This document shows positions 41,882-60,620 of a stretch of DNA of 64,000 bases, piece by piece; position 1 is the first letter of the stretch; each line of letters starts with the position of its first letter. This DNA comes from Pseudogemmobacter hezensis (GTDB lineage: Bacteria; Pseudomonadota; Alphaproteobacteria; Rhodobacterales; Rhodobacteraceae), in contig NZ_JABJXT010000007.1 in the NCBI RefSeq assembly GCF_013155295.1, positions 62,001 through 126,000 of the forward strand, in the 5' to 3' direction. The translations under genes and the position numbers were made by a program. Below the pieces are notes generated by a model. That model was given only the letters and a program-made list of their open reading frames with translations. It ran no database searches and was not told where the DNA came from.

Positions 41882-42973
41882 TCACTTCGGAATATCGCCG
41901 GTGATGCCTTCGACATAGAAATCCATCGTGGCAAGGGCTGCGTCATCGGCAACCACGCCATCAGCCAGCCACTCCGAGCCGTCCTGTTTGTTCAGCGGCC
42001 CGGTGAAGGGGTGGTAGGTGCCAGCCGCGATATCATCGCGCAGCTTTTCAGCGGCGGCTTTCACCTCGGCCGGAACGGCCTCGGTGATTTCGCCGATCTC
42101 GACCTCACCGCCGGCGATGCCTTCCCAGGCGGCCGATTGCGCGTAAGAGCCATCCAGCAGCGCGCCGACGCGCTTGATGTAATAGGGCGACCAGTTGTCG
42201 ATGATCGCCGAGACGCGGGGCGCGGGCTTATAGGCCGACATGTCAGAGGCCTGACCGAAACCGATCACGCCCTCGACCTTGGCGGCCTCGGCCAGCGGTG
42301 CGGTGGAATCGGTGTGCTGCAGGATCACGTCGATGCCCTGGTCGATCAGCGCTTTGGCGGCATCGGCCTCTTTGGCGGGGTCGAACCAGGTATAGGCCCA
42401 GACCACGGTCATGGTCGCATCCGGGTTCACCTTTTTGGCGTGGATGTAAGAGGCGTTGATGCCCTGGATGACCTCGGGGATCGGGTAAGAGCCGATATAG
42501 CCGATTTTATTCGATTTGGTCATATGGCCCGCGATGGTGCCCATGACGGCGCGGCCCTCATAGAAGCGGGCGTCATAGGTCGAGACATTCGGCTGGTCGC
42601 GCTTGAAGCCCGTGGCATGCTCGAATTTGATATCCGGGAACTGCGCCGCGACCGCCTGGGTCGCGTCCATGAAGCCGAAAGAGGTGGTGAAGATGATATT
42701 GCAGCCATCCAGCGCGAATTGGGTGATGGCACGCTCGGCGTCGGCACCCTCGGGCACCGATTCCTGCCAGGCGATATCGACCTTGTCGCCGAACTCTTCC
42801 TTCAGCGCCAGCGCGCCCTGATGGTGCTGATAGGTCCAGCCGCCGTCACCGATGGGGCCGACATAGATGAAGCAGGCCTTCACATGATCCAGGCCCTGCG
42901 CCATAGCCGCGCCGCTGGTCAGCGACAGGCCAAGGCCAATGGCGGCACCCGCCAGCAGATTTCTGCGTTTCAT
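41882..42973 (-). CDS. BMP-family ABC transporter substrate-binding protein
   Basis: A 363-aa periplasmic binding protein of the BmpA/PnrA family, which usually binds purine nucleosides. It has a signal peptide (KRRNLLAGAAIGLGLSLTSGAAMA). The core shows VGPIGDGGWTYQHHQGALALK, FTTSFGFMDATQAVA and IGYIGSYPIPEVIQGINA. It is the last gene of an ATPase-permease-permease-binding protein operon on the minus strand. Nucleoside import is the best family guess; it is not proven by sequence. Confidence 0.93.
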   Translation of the reverse strand: MKRRNLLAGAAIGLGLSLTSGAAMAQGLDHVKACFIYVGPIGDGGWTYQHHQGALALKEEFGDKVDIAWQESVPEGADAERAITQFALDGCNIIFTTSFGFMDATQAVAAQFPDIKFEHATGFKRDQPNVSTYDARFYEGRAVMGTIAGHMTKSNKIGYIGSYPIPEVIQGINASYIHAKKVNPDATMTVVWAYTWFDPAKEADAAKALIDQGIDVILQHTDSTAPLAEAAKVEGVIGFGQASDMSAYKPAPRVSAIIDNWSPYYIKRVGALLDGSYAQSAAWEGIAGGEVEIGEITEAVPAEVKAAAEKLRDDIAAGTYHPFTGPLNKQDGSEWLADGVVADDAALATMDFYVEGITGDIPK

Positions 42974-43078: not shown

Positions 43079-44008
43079 TCAGCGAGAGGCGTGGAAATTC
43101 TGCCCCAAAGAGGCCGGGGCGCCCATCCTGGCCCCTTTGCGCGCCGACATCACCACCAGCACGACGATGGTGATCAGATAGGGCGCCATGCTGAGATACT
43201 CGACCGGGATGCGGTATTCTGCGGCCTGCAGGTTCGGCCCCAGCACCAGCAGCCCGCCGAAAAGCCAGGCCCCGAACAGCACGCGCCCGGGCCGCCAGGA
43301 GGCAAAGACCACGATGGCCAATGCGATCCAGCCGATGCCATTGGTGATATTGTCGGTCCACTGCGGCACCCGCACCAGGCTGATATAAGCCCCGCCGATT
43401 CCGGCCATCGCGCCGCCAAAAAGGATGCAGAGCAGGCGGATCCGGTTGACCTTATAGCCAAGGGCGTGGGCGGCCTCATGGTTCTCGCCGACAGCGCGGA
43501 TGATCAGCCCGGCGCGGCTGCGGTTCAGAAGCCACCAGGTCACCGCGACCATGGCCAGCCCGAACCAGACCACCCAGTCATGGCGGAACAGCATCGGCCC
43601 AAGGAAGGGAATGTCGCGCAGCGGCCCCATCGGCACCGCGCCCGTTACCGGCGGTTTGATCCCGTTGAACCCCTGTCCGGCCAGCGATGAGATGCCGATG
43701 CCGACGAGTGTCAGCGCCAGCCCTGTGGCAACCTGATTGGCCTGCAGCACAAGGACCAGAAAGGCAAAAATCAGCGAGAAAGCCGCGCCACAGGCCGCGC
43801 CCGCCAGAAAGCCCAGGATGGGGCTTTGGAAGGTGACGGCGGCGATAAAGCCAGAGACGGCGCCGATGATCATCATCCCCTCAACGCCCAGGTTCAGGAC
43901 GCCCGAACGCTCGACCACGGTCTCGCCAAGGGCCGCCAGCAGGATCGGCACCGAACCCACCATCAGCGAGGCCATCAGAACCGCAATATCAATGCCGCCG
44001 ATGATCAT
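43079..44008 (-). CDS. ABC transporter permease, BMP-type system (second)
   Basis: A 309-aa permease of the BPD_transp_2 (branched-chain amino acid/ribose-like) type, with 8-10 spans. ERSGVLNLGVEGMMIIGAV is the typical EAA-like cytoplasmic-side motif, and LIIRAVGENHEAAHALGYKV is the second conserved loop. ATG overlaps the upstream permease stop (ATGA), and 105 nt separate it from the binding-protein gene. Pairs with the next permease in the membrane. Confidence 0.93.
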   Translation of the reverse strand: MIIGGIDIAVLMASLMVGSVPILLAALGETVVERSGVLNLGVEGMMIIGAVSGFIAAVTFQSPILGFLAGAACGAAFSLIFAFLVLVLQANQVATGLALTLVGIGISSLAGQGFNGIKPPVTGAVPMGPLRDIPFLGPMLFRHDWVVWFGLAMVAVTWWLLNRSRAGLIIRAVGENHEAAHALGYKVNRIRLLCILFGGAMAGIGGAYISLVRVPQWTDNITNGIGWIALAIVVFASWRPGRVLFGAWLFGGLLVLGPNLQAAEYRIPVEYLSMAPYLITIVVLVVMSARKGARMGAPASLGQNFHASR

Positions 44009-45099
44009 GCGCCCGCTCCTTTGCTTTGGCTGCGGCTCAGGCGGATGCGGTAATTGGTCAGCACATCGACGCCCAGCAGGAAGAAAAGCAGCATGCCCTG
44101 AAAGACCTGGATCGAGGCCGCAGGCAGGTTCAGGCGCGATTCCGCAAGGCTGCCGCCGACATAGGTCAGCGCCATCAACAGCCCGGCCAGCACGATGCCC
44201 AGCGGGTTCAGCCGGCCAAGGAAGGCAACGATGATCGCGGTGAAACCATAGCCGGTGGCAAAATTCTCGGTCAGCTGACCGGCGGGGCCGCTGACCTCGA
44301 AAATCCCGGCCATACCTGCAAGGATCCCGGCGGTGCCGAGGCAAAAGATTATCAGCCGCGTCGGGCTGACGCCATGGAAGCGGGCCGCGCGCGGGGCCTG
44401 GCCTGCAAGGCGGATCTGAAAGCCGATGCCATGGCGGGTCAGCAACACATAGGCCGCAACGGCTACGGCCAGCGCGGTGAATGCGCCCCAATGCAAGCCG
44501 CTGCGCTCGATCAGGTCGAAATTGCGGGCGGCGGGATAGGTCGAGAAGTTGCGGCTGCCAGGAAAGCCCATGCCCTCGGGGTTTCGCAGAAAGCTGAATG
44601 AGGCCTTTGCAAGGATCGCCTGGGCGACATAGACCAGCATCAGCGACACAAGGATCTCATTGGTGTTGAACCTTGTGCGCAAAATCGCAGGGATCATGGC
44701 CCAGGCCCAGCCGCCAAAAGCCCCGGCCGCGACCATCAGCGGAAAGATCAGCCGGTTTTCGGTCGGGTAAAAGGCAAGCCCGACTGAGGCCCCGATGACC
44801 GCGCCCATGATATACTGGCCTTCAGCGCCGATATTCCAGATCCCGGCGCGAAACCCCATCGCCAGCCCGACCGCGATCAGGATCAGGGGGGCCGCTTTGA
44901 TAAAGAGCTGAGCGCGGAAATAGGAGGCGTTGGATCCGGCCAGAGGCTCCCAGAAAATGGTTCGGATCACGGTGAACGGATTCGAGCCGAGCGCCGCAAA
45001 CAGCAGGCCAGCCGCTGTCATCGTCAGAAGAACAGCCAGCACTGGCGTGAACCACAGCCAGAAGCGTGAGGGATTTGGGCGCTTTTCCAGCCTCAGCAC
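44005..45099 (-). CDS. ABC transporter permease, BMP-type system (first)
   Basis: A 364-aa permease, about 10 spans. FRAGIWNIGAEGQYIMGAVI is the conserved motif of the nucleoside/BMP-type permease, and IRLAGQAPRAARFHGVSPTR the second loop. Starts with GTG 45099 after GGGGGTGA. The 96-nt gap to the ATPase gene is filled by two perfect 22-bp palindromes. Confidence 0.93.
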   Translation of the reverse strand: MLRLEKRPNPSRFWLWFTPVLAVLLTMTAAGLLFAALGSNPFTVIRTIFWEPLAGSNASYFRAQLFIKAAPLILIAVGLAMGFRAGIWNIGAEGQYIMGAVIGASVGLAFYPTENRLIFPLMVAAGAFGGWAWAMIPAILRTRFNTNEILVSLMLVYVAQAILAKASFSFLRNPEGMGFPGSRNFSTYPAARNFDLIERSGLHWGAFTALAVAVAAYVLLTRHGIGFQIRLAGQAPRAARFHGVSPTRLIIFCLGTAGILAGMAGIFEVSGPAGQLTENFATGYGFTAIIVAFLGRLNPLGIVLAGLLMALTYVGGSLAESRLNLPAASIQVFQGMLLFFLLGVDVLTNYRIRLSRSQSKGAGA

Positions 45100-45128
45100 A
45101 GATCACCCCCGGGGCCATCGTTGCGCAA

Positions 45129-45173
45129 CCAATTCCTTGCAAGGAATTGGGCCGATTTCTTGCAAGAAATCGG
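45129..45173. repeat. Two adjacent perfect 22-bp palindromes
   Basis: CCAATTCCTTG|CAAGGAATTGG (45129-45150) and CCGATTTCTTG|CAAGAAATCGG (45152-45173), one base apart, both centred on TTGCAA. They lie between the ATPase and permease genes of the ABC operon. Each could form an 11-bp hairpin in RNA or bind a dimeric protein. TTGCGCAA (45121-45128) directly adjoins on the permease side. Confidence 0.93.
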
Positions 45174-45195
45174 GCTTGTGGCTGCCCATTGCGCG

Positions 45196-46728
45196 TCAGT
45201 TTGCAAGATGCGCTTCCTCCATGCCGTGGGCGCCGCCCATCATCAGCCCGATCTGTTCGGTGTCGAGGCCCTGGATCGGGCGCGGGGCGGTCAGGCGGCC
45301 AGCATTCAGCACTGCGAAGGTGTCCGCGATCTCCATCAGCTCATCGAGATCCTGGCTGATCACCACCACCGCAGCACCCGCCGCCGCACAGTCGAGGATT
45401 TTCTGGCGGATTGCGCTGGCTGCTGCCGCATCCACGCCCCAGGTGGGCTGATTGATCACGATCACATCTGCCCCCTGTTGCAGCTCTCGCCCCATCAGGA
45501 ATTTCTGCAGGTTTCCGCCCGACAGCGCCCTTGCCGCCACATCCGGCCCGGGCGTTCTGACGTCGTAATCCCGGATCACCGCTTTTGCGAAATCGCGCAC
45601 TTTGCCCCAGCTGACAAAGCCGTTGCGCGACAGGGGCATCCTCGCCCCCGCCGTAAGCCAGGCGTTTTCTGTCAGGCTCATATCCGGGGCAGCGGCATGG
45701 CCATAGCGATCCTCGGGGGCGGCGACGAGGCCTGCTTTGCGCCTTTGCGCCGGGCCTGCCGCGCCAATCGGCTGACCGTTAAGCGTGATCGCCCCGGGCG
45801 CGGAACGCAGCTCGCCTGAAAGCGCCAGCAGCAGCTCATCCTGGCCATTTCCGGCCACGCCTGCGATGCCCAGGATCTCACCTTTGGCGAGTGAAAAGCT
45901 GATCTCGCGCAGGGGGGTGCCAAAGGGGATCGGCGAGGGGCGCGACAGGTTCGAAACCTGCAGCGCCACTGCGCCATGTGTCGCGGGGCTGCGCGATGGC
46001 ACCGCAAGCGATGCGCCGACCATCAGCTCGGCCATCTCGCGGGCCGAGCGCTCGCGCGGGGTGCAGGTGGCGACCACCCTGCCACGCCGCAGGATCGTGG
46101 CCTCATCGCAAAGACTGCGGATCTCTTCCAGCTTGTGGCTGATGTAAAGAATCGAGGTGCCTGCCGCCGCCAGCTGCCGCAGGGTGCCAAAGAGGATTTC
46201 CACCTCCTGGGGGGTCAGCACTGAGGTCGGCTCGTCCATGATCAGCAGTTTCGGATCCTGCAGCAGGCAGCGGATGATCTCGACCCGCTGGCGCTCGCCC
46301 GCAGACAGGTCGCCGACATGGCGGGCAGGGTCCAGCGGCAGGCCATAGGCCTCTGACACCTCGCGGATACGGCCCGACAGGATGCGCAGGGGGGGCGGGG
46401 TCTCCATCCCGAGCGCGACATTTTCCGCAACCGTCAGCGCCTCGAAAAGCGAGAAATGCTGGAACACCATTGCCACGCCCTGGCGGCGGGCCTCGGCGGG
46501 GCGGCCGGGGGCATAGGGGCGGCCTGACAGCAGCATGCGGCCCTGGTCCGGGCGCACGAGGCCATAGATCATCTTGACCAGCGTCGATTTGCCCGCGCCA
46601 TTCTCGCCCAAAAGCGCATGGATTTCGCCCGTCCGGATGGTGAACGAGACATCGCTGTTGGCGATCACGCCGGGATAGGCCCTGGTCAGGCCTTCGAGGC
46701 GCAAAAGCTCATCCGTGGCGGCTGTCAT
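45196..46728 (-). CDS. ABC transporter ATP-binding protein, BMP/sugar-type (tandem NBD)
   Basis: A 510-aa ATPase with two nucleotide-binding domains, as in RbsA/NupA. The first is complete: LLGENGAGKSTLVKMIYG (Walker A), LSAGERQRVEIIRCLLQD and LLIMDEPTSVLTPQE. The second has the usual degenerate P-loop (GVAGNGQDELLLALSG) but keeps ALSGGNLQKFLMGREL and VINQPTWGVD. First gene of the transporter operon; ATG 46728 with a GCGGGG lead. Confidence 0.94.
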   Translation of the reverse strand: MTAATDELLRLEGLTRAYPGVIANSDVSFTIRTGEIHALLGENGAGKSTLVKMIYGLVRPDQGRMLLSGRPYAPGRPAEARRQGVAMVFQHFSLFEALTVAENVALGMETPPPLRILSGRIREVSEAYGLPLDPARHVGDLSAGERQRVEIIRCLLQDPKLLIMDEPTSVLTPQEVEILFGTLRQLAAAGTSILYISHKLEEIRSLCDEATILRRGRVVATCTPRERSAREMAELMVGASLAVPSRSPATHGAVALQVSNLSRPSPIPFGTPLREISFSLAKGEILGIAGVAGNGQDELLLALSGELRSAPGAITLNGQPIGAAGPAQRRKAGLVAAPEDRYGHAAAPDMSLTENAWLTAGARMPLSRNGFVSWGKVRDFAKAVIRDYDVRTPGPDVAARALSGGNLQKFLMGRELQQGADVIVINQPTWGVDAAAASAIRQKILDCAAAGAAVVVISQDLDELMEIADTFAVLNAGRLTAPRPIQGLDTEQIGLMMGGAHGMEEAHLAN

Positions 46729-60573: not shown

Positions 60574-60620
60574 ACAGAATAAACCCGGCTCAGTGCGGAT
60601 CTGAGCCGGGTTTATTCTGT
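60574..60620 (-). terminator. 20-bp perfect inverted repeat ending the small secreted-protein gene
   Basis: ACAGAATAAACCCGGCTCAG (60574-60593) and CTGAGCCGGGTTTATTCTGT (60601-60620) are exact inverted copies with a 7-nt loop. On the minus strand a T-rich tail follows. It lies 19 nt past the end of the 60639 gene and faces the DUF2125 terminator. Confidence 0.85.

Follow-up and report, generated by a model that had tools for sequence, protein, structure and literature searches.

REP/BIME elements are palindromes of 20–40 bp with a GTAG/CGTC tag. They are extragenic and grouped, and lie downstream of coding regions, between codirectional or convergent genes, according to parts of PMC3733652, in which the CGTC type is also reported without a dedicated RAYT. 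Hairpins between genes also have a described role in message decay: differential decay in E. coli operons including malEFG was guided by intergenic hairpins (passages of PMC5927463), and in work on Rhodobacter sphaeroides secondary structures are said to protect from 3'-to-5' decay (passages of PMC7866481). Here we describe a pair of palindromes in the ATPase-permease gap of an ABC operon, which is one copy of a genome-wide family of paired hairpin-forming arrays. The arrays of this family consisted of two or three roughly 22-bp palindromes, and neighbouring palindromes had unlike arms.

The palindrome pair and its gene context

The window (the whole stretch of 64,000 nt that was analysed) contained the following features around the pair:

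45129..45150, minus strand: second-transcribed palindrome and hairpin, CCAATTCCTTGCAAGGAATTGG, ending 29 nt before the permease start codon
45151..45151, no strand: one-base spacer G, which puts the palindrome centres 23 bp apart
45152..45173, minus strand: first-transcribed palindrome and hairpin, CCGATTTCTTGCAAGAAATCGG, beginning 22 nt after the ATPase stop codon
45196..46728, minus strand: ABC transporter ATPase, the upstream gene (PF00005, two stretches)
44005..45099, minus strand: permease, the downstream gene (PF02653)
43079..44008, minus strand: second permease of the ABC gene run (PF02653)
41882..42973, minus strand: substrate-binding protein of the ABC gene run, Bmp/PnrA-like (PF02608)

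The ATPase-permease gap in this minus-strand, Bmp-type ABC run was 96 nt and held both palindromes. A sequence-only reading of the window had reported two perfect 22-bp palindromes one base apart in this gap, and we confirmed them at 45129-45150 and 45152-45173. Two of its details had to be corrected: the arms were said to share only the core and ends, but they match at 8 of 10 positions (CCAATTCCTT and CCGATTTCTT), and the 11-bp RNA hairpin given for each palindrome became, in the predicted fold, a 9-bp stem with a UGCA loop. The fold of the 63-nt RNA, with these two stems and loops, had -22.8 kcal/mol and a z of -3.8 against dinucleotide shuffles, and in a fold of the site a predicted outer stem enclosed both hairpins.

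No other array was identified in the window, where the remaining 15 hairpins with a stem of at least 9 were all solitary. At 60574-60620 there was a perfect 20-bp stem with a 7-nt loop, and it had no second copy in the own genome. An Rfam search of window 44800-45500 at E≤1 showed two sub-threshold snoRNA matches, both off the palindromes, and four array loci had no match at the gathering threshold, so no known RNA family was recognised. The blastn search of the 45-bp site against plasmid records gave 11 weak records from Bacillus-type genera and Cupriavidus, all with E about 8 and none covering 80%.

Array family in the genome

The 4.6-Mb genome had 9 copies of the sequence TTYCTTGCAAGRAA, spread over 8 loci (reversed control 0), and a second, unlike palindrome adjoined it at all 8 loci. 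The pattern CSGNNNYYTTNNAARRNNNCSG had 41 matches in the own genome versus 3 for the control, and 1 to 73 matches versus 0 to 7 across 13 same-genus genomes; non-palindromes are included in these matches. A model-free scan of a contiguous 400 kb of contig 1 revealed four arrays and one G-homopolymer artefact, and no solitary member of array type was apparent by eye in its list of 52 hairpins. At L148 4824-4873 (contig C1 384824-384873), about 22 G were followed by CGG and about 22 C, with the genes called convergent; this inverted homopolymer is possibly an assembly artefact.

Close pairs were defined by stems of at least 9 and centres 22-24 bp apart. The 464 kb made up of the window and the 400 kb of contig 1 contained 6 of them, and none appeared in any of 10 dinucleotide shuffles, so the ABC-gap pair is not a product of chance. 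A genome search for further tandem palindromes, which the sequence-only reading had proposed, found the type genome-wide. The element also occurred beyond ABC operons, for example after eno and dapA.

Sixty pieces of four kb were scanned, and L168, L182, L209 and L213, which had no array by the strict scan, stand outside the counts. The counts leave out the relaxed scan, which missed some arrays, including that of the window. The own-genome set of 24 arrays is a sample from among the matches listed.

Spacing and arm sequences

In the 62 arrays (63 found minus the G-homopolymer artefact), the centre-to-centre distance was exactly 23.0 bp in 49 of 60 directly neighbouring pairs and 22.5 to 24.0 bp in the others. 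This spacing was not forced by the scan, because gaps up to 10 nt were permitted. The 122 palindromes carried 45 arm sequences, of which CCGGAGTTTT (21) and CCGATTTCTT (16) were the commonest, and the own genome had 28 distinct arms among 52 palindromes. Most arms had TT before a variable central pair, and identical arms recurred at separate loci with differing centres. Such preferences for arm and core are partly built in, because most loci were picked by patterns requiring these letters; nine pattern-free palindromes from the contig-1 sample resembled the pattern-picked ones. By the relaxed scan, which is biased to good pairing, the stems were nearly free of G-U and almost perfect as DNA, and stem mismatches sorted by transcribed strand were few.

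Neighbours differing by at most one base were found in 0 of 64 pairs, versus 10.2 expected from arm shuffling, in a set that includes orthologs and four pairs that skip a filtered middle unit. The own genome alone had 0 of 28 versus 3.6 expected, a result reached in 2.2% of shuffles. Since near-identical neighbours were never found, simple duplication of one palindrome is ruled out, in agreement with the sequence-only reading.

Conservation in related genomes

Among 13 same-genus genomes, the ABC gap had two palindromes in 7 (with wider spacing in G003), one in 2 and none in 4. The arrays after eno and dapA were present in the same 7 genomes, and the other 6 had single hairpins at most at these two places, apart from the eno gene of G010 with two far apart. 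In 80 kb scanned of the same-genus genome G008, no array was found. A site that was unique and not conserved in close relatives would have spoken against the earlier reading; the type is genome-wide and the gap pair is kept in these 7 of 13 genomes.

The gap pair was present in 2 of 80 named Rhodobacteraceae loci, those of Pseudogemmobacter humi (L032) and a Paracoccaceae MAG (L049). P. humi is the closest named relative by permease (86%), which places the window probably in Pseudogemmobacter or a neighbouring genus. The L054 gap had one palindrome beside N, and the L064 gap had three, a run of N and then one more. Three adjacent G+C-rich palindromes were found in the L103 gap and single G+C-rich hairpins in several others of the remaining 76 gaps, and none of them was read as array type.

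In other genera, we found one array in the 160 kb scanned of G017 (23 bp) and one in the 160 kb scanned of G157 (21.5 bp, four hairpins). The 22-mer pattern gave mostly chance matches in 149 family genomes; among the matches listed, G014 (22 versus 1), G017 (38 versus 5), G157 (18 versus 4) and G105 (13 versus 2) were clearly above the control. A triple palindrome array with a 25-bp period and other cores was seen at L035 294-367 (Rhodobacter sp. BC.021 MAG), which suggests that lineages may vary in period and core.

Another extragenic motif, CCTCCGGCGG[GA], was observed in the same ATPase-permease gap, upstream of the permease, in 9 of the 80 named Rhodobacteraceae gaps (L039, L043, L056, L058, L068, L073, L086, L101 and L104), often followed by TATTT.

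Position of the arrays relative to genes

Over 85 ends, the arrays stood a median of 13 nt from the stop codon, and 81 of the 85 were no more than 80 nt away, including five negative values from rough gene calls. Two or more hairpins at most about 80 nt from the stop are the placement described for hairpin-cluster terminators, and the arrays share it. Between codirectional genes, the distance from array to next start had a median of 56 nt and a minimum of 11 nt. The convergent gap at L170 was almost all array, with 2 and 0 nt remaining.

After hand correction of two gene contexts, the 24 own-genome arrays were 12 convergent, 12 codirectional and 0 divergent, which is also the placement of REP/RAYT elements (downstream, codirectional or convergent). 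Background gaps no shorter than 45 nt numbered 54 convergent, 159 codirectional and 63 divergent. With the two corrected contexts, Fisher tests on the own genome gave p 0.0015 for convergent enrichment and p 0.0036 for divergent depletion; with raw gene calls, 2 of 24 were divergent (p 0.12). The gene caller was rough: L166 and L178 were called divergent in the raw output and reset to codirectional by hand, because dapA and an ORF, respectively, end just before the array, and some convergent calls overlap the array itself (contig 1, 59003). The own-genome test was preferred to the Fisher test on the whole set, which contains 28 convergent arrays (27 without the artefact) and the ambiguous context of L188.

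Terminators near the arrays

Of 87 array 3' ends, 4 had a canonical terminator in the 60 nt past the array. At convergent ends, canonical terminators were present past arrays in 4 of 54 cases versus 30 of 108 in the background (p 0.002), and in the own genome alone at 1 of 24 ends (p 0.015 versus background), with search stretches that differ slightly in length between arrays and background. This rarity past convergent arrays favours termination at the arrays. In the ABC gap, the transcribed strand had no T-run past the second hairpin, so the array is not a canonical intrinsic terminator with a G+C-rich stem and a direct U-tract.

At the 3' end of eno, the array follows the stop codon and precedes a G+C-rich hairpin, which has at least 4 T close behind it in five genomes and the weaker TAACTTTT behind it in G000. 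Since this terminator-like hairpin stands beyond the array, the eno array is not itself the terminator. The third, G+C-rich hairpin was seen at L252-L257 (G000, G012, G007, G001, G004 and G005), and it co-varies between G000 and G004, with GGGCACC/GGTGCCC versus GGGCGCC/GGCGCCC.

Downstream of dapA, the following gene starts about 9-12 nt beyond the array, so read-through is needed there. In dapA of G004 (L269), the stop TAG reads CAG, and the frame continues across the first palindrome until it ends within the second one.

Proposed function

The symmetry is kept despite differing letters, the arrays are placed after stop codons and they are scarce between divergent genes; therefore we read them as RNA hairpins. 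The sequence-only reading had offered a hairpin or an operator. The hairpin part is supported by the sites after stops, the varying arms with kept symmetry and the paired changes shown below, and the operator part is opposed by the same arm variation and by the placement.

Judged from sequence, the arrays probably shape message ends or message lifetime. We give about an even chance to the reading that they are REP/BIME-like hairpin elements at 3' ends and between cistrons, lacking a U-tract, which would serve as a barrier to 3' exonucleases and perhaps cause some bidirectional termination or attenuation. The barrier fits with the lack of a U-tract, with the arrays inside gene runs that polymerase must cross, and with the eno hairpin and its T-run beyond the array. 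Read-through RNA of any gene would form two adjacent hairpins shortly after the stop codon. These hairpins (here 9 bp with 4-nt loops) would block 3'-to-5' exonucleases, so that the upstream coding segment would have a defined and protected 3' end. Some of the polymerases that reach an array may also halt there, and between convergent genes this could happen to transcription from both sides. In the ABC operon, the outcome would be more of the ATPase segment than of the permease segment, and by analogy with malEFG and puf it is plausible that the hairpins set the ATPase:permease ratio.

It is possible, though we favour it less, that the arrays are mainly bidirectional terminators without a U-tract (either tandem-hairpin intrinsic terminators or hairpins that Rho assists), which would be leaky inside operons. 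The enrichment between convergent genes, the L170-type gaps that hold almost only array and the fewer canonical terminators past arrays all point in this direction. Hairpin clusters at stop codons were also proposed as terminators in 13 genomes (passages of PMC8355165), and in Zymomonas mobilis mapped intrinsic-terminator sites were over-represented between convergent genes, 34% versus 7.5% (passages of PMC7566282). However, no U-tract is present, codirectional genes starting as near as 11 nt would need read-through, and the eno array precedes a terminator-like hairpin.

Paired changes in the arms

Between the own genome and G004, 19 loci were matched by flanks, and 18 had arrays in both; at the remaining one (L163/L182) the G004 array was imperfect. 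We compared 28 ortholog cases (58 palindromes, 12 of them with some unaligned columns), and among the stem pairs 533 were unchanged, 16 had changed on both sides and still matched, 5 had become G-U and 21 were broken. The selection of G004 loci through a palindrome pattern favours pairing; the ABC, eno and dapA sets were chosen by protein. Outside the two outermost pairs, there were 14 paired versus 8 unpaired changes. The two outermost pairs had 18 of the 26 unpaired changes, and 6 of the inner 8 were at L180, where loop lengths are unequal. Three paired changes at L180 are probably one inherited event.

The covariation score of the ABC gap was 0.230 versus 0.101 in shuffles (0 of 500 as high), and without the innermost pairs a weak 0.122 versus 0.076 (50 of 500 as high), in an alignment of 6 sequences, 5 of them distinct, with G005 shifted by one base. 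In the five closest ABC-gap sequences the arms were nearly constant, and the clean paired change was innermost T-A to G-C in both palindromes. The innermost pair, which lies inside the predicted loop, was the site of 5 of the 16 paired changes. Because this pair would not form in an RNA hairpin, the symmetry may be kept at the DNA level or by copying. Its covariation, together with the few one-sided stem changes, hints at DNA-level symmetry or at both arms changing in one event.

A palindrome family kept at the DNA level should be considered: a copied or mobile REP-like repeat, gyrase or nucleoid-protein sites, or palindromes that template switching keeps perfect. Whatever the arrays do as RNA would then be secondary. 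The co-varying innermost pair, the near-perfect DNA stems, the same arms at different loci with differing centres and the variable presence of arrays among same-genus genomes would all agree with it. We think it unlikely, because the units have no sequence common to all and no apparent tag, the placement at 3' ends is strict and arrays are retained at orthologous gaps. The Y1-type (RAYT) transposase PF01797 was absent from all 13 same-genus genomes as well; the control was positive in 5 of 14 known genomes.

A tandem operator for a dimeric DNA-binding protein is very improbable: the two-fold DNA symmetry with tight spacing, the 37 of 122 palindromes with CCGGAGTTTT or CCGATTTCTT (in a partly pattern-chosen set) and the nearly constant ABC-gap arms of the five closest genomes could suit it, but the arms differ by site and by neighbour, and half of the 24 arrays lie between convergent genes and none between divergent ones (2 by raw calls). 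A transcription-factor operator with shared letters upstream of genes was also rejected, from the varying arms and the absence of divergent sites after hand correction.

Returning to the hairpin element, we tentatively suggest a wider reading, less firmly held than the exonuclease barrier. The arrays may be a repeat family defined by structure, with no fixed sequence, placed at 3' ends in a 23-bp register. Their arms would be rewritten in pairs, also near the loop, and one event of template switching or of copying between arrays might change both at once; neighbours would be kept unlike to prevent mispairing or recombination. Such a family would be maintained without a Y1 transposase and serve as general paired locks of message ends in part of the Rhodobacteraceae. 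If true, it means that a bacterial group marks many message ends by a hairpin pair conserved in shape and not in letters. Sequence-based repeat finders would miss such arrays, because the shape is kept and the letters are not. The dozens of arrays, with sister species showing paired changes, form a natural series. With it one may ask in what way hairpin clusters lacking a U-tract terminate or stabilise messages, what accounts for the tight spacing and how the palindromes persist in perfect form.

Comparison with known systems

A description of this family was not found in the open-access literature searched (print may differ), and six 18-letter arm strings had no match there. Five Rhodobacterales names that were looked for are absent from the consulted parts of PMC3733652, and those of the RepRanger survey (PMC12306157) have no mention of Rhodobacter.

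The arrays resemble REP/BIME, as described in parts of PMC3733652, as grouped extragenic palindromes after coding regions, between codirectional and convergent genes. They differ by the lack of a common sequence or apparent tag, the unlike neighbouring arms, the 23-bp register and the absence of Y1 transposase. Membership in REP/RAYT was rejected on sequence kinship, since the own genome has so many distinct arms and no tag was seen on reading the arrays by eye.

With the hairpin-cluster intrinsic terminators, in the passages of PMC8355165, they share two or more hairpins soon after the stop and a dispensable U-tract. In contrast to these, the arrays have recurrent arms, near-perfect palindromes and tight spacing, and they also lie between codirectional genes, the next gene being 11-40 nt off.

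The stem-loops of malEFG and puf, in the passages of PMC5927463, are similar in that an intercistronic hairpin protects the upstream segment, and malEFG is itself an ABC operon. Those are single-operon cases with measured decay, whereas the arrays are a genome-wide family known from sequence.
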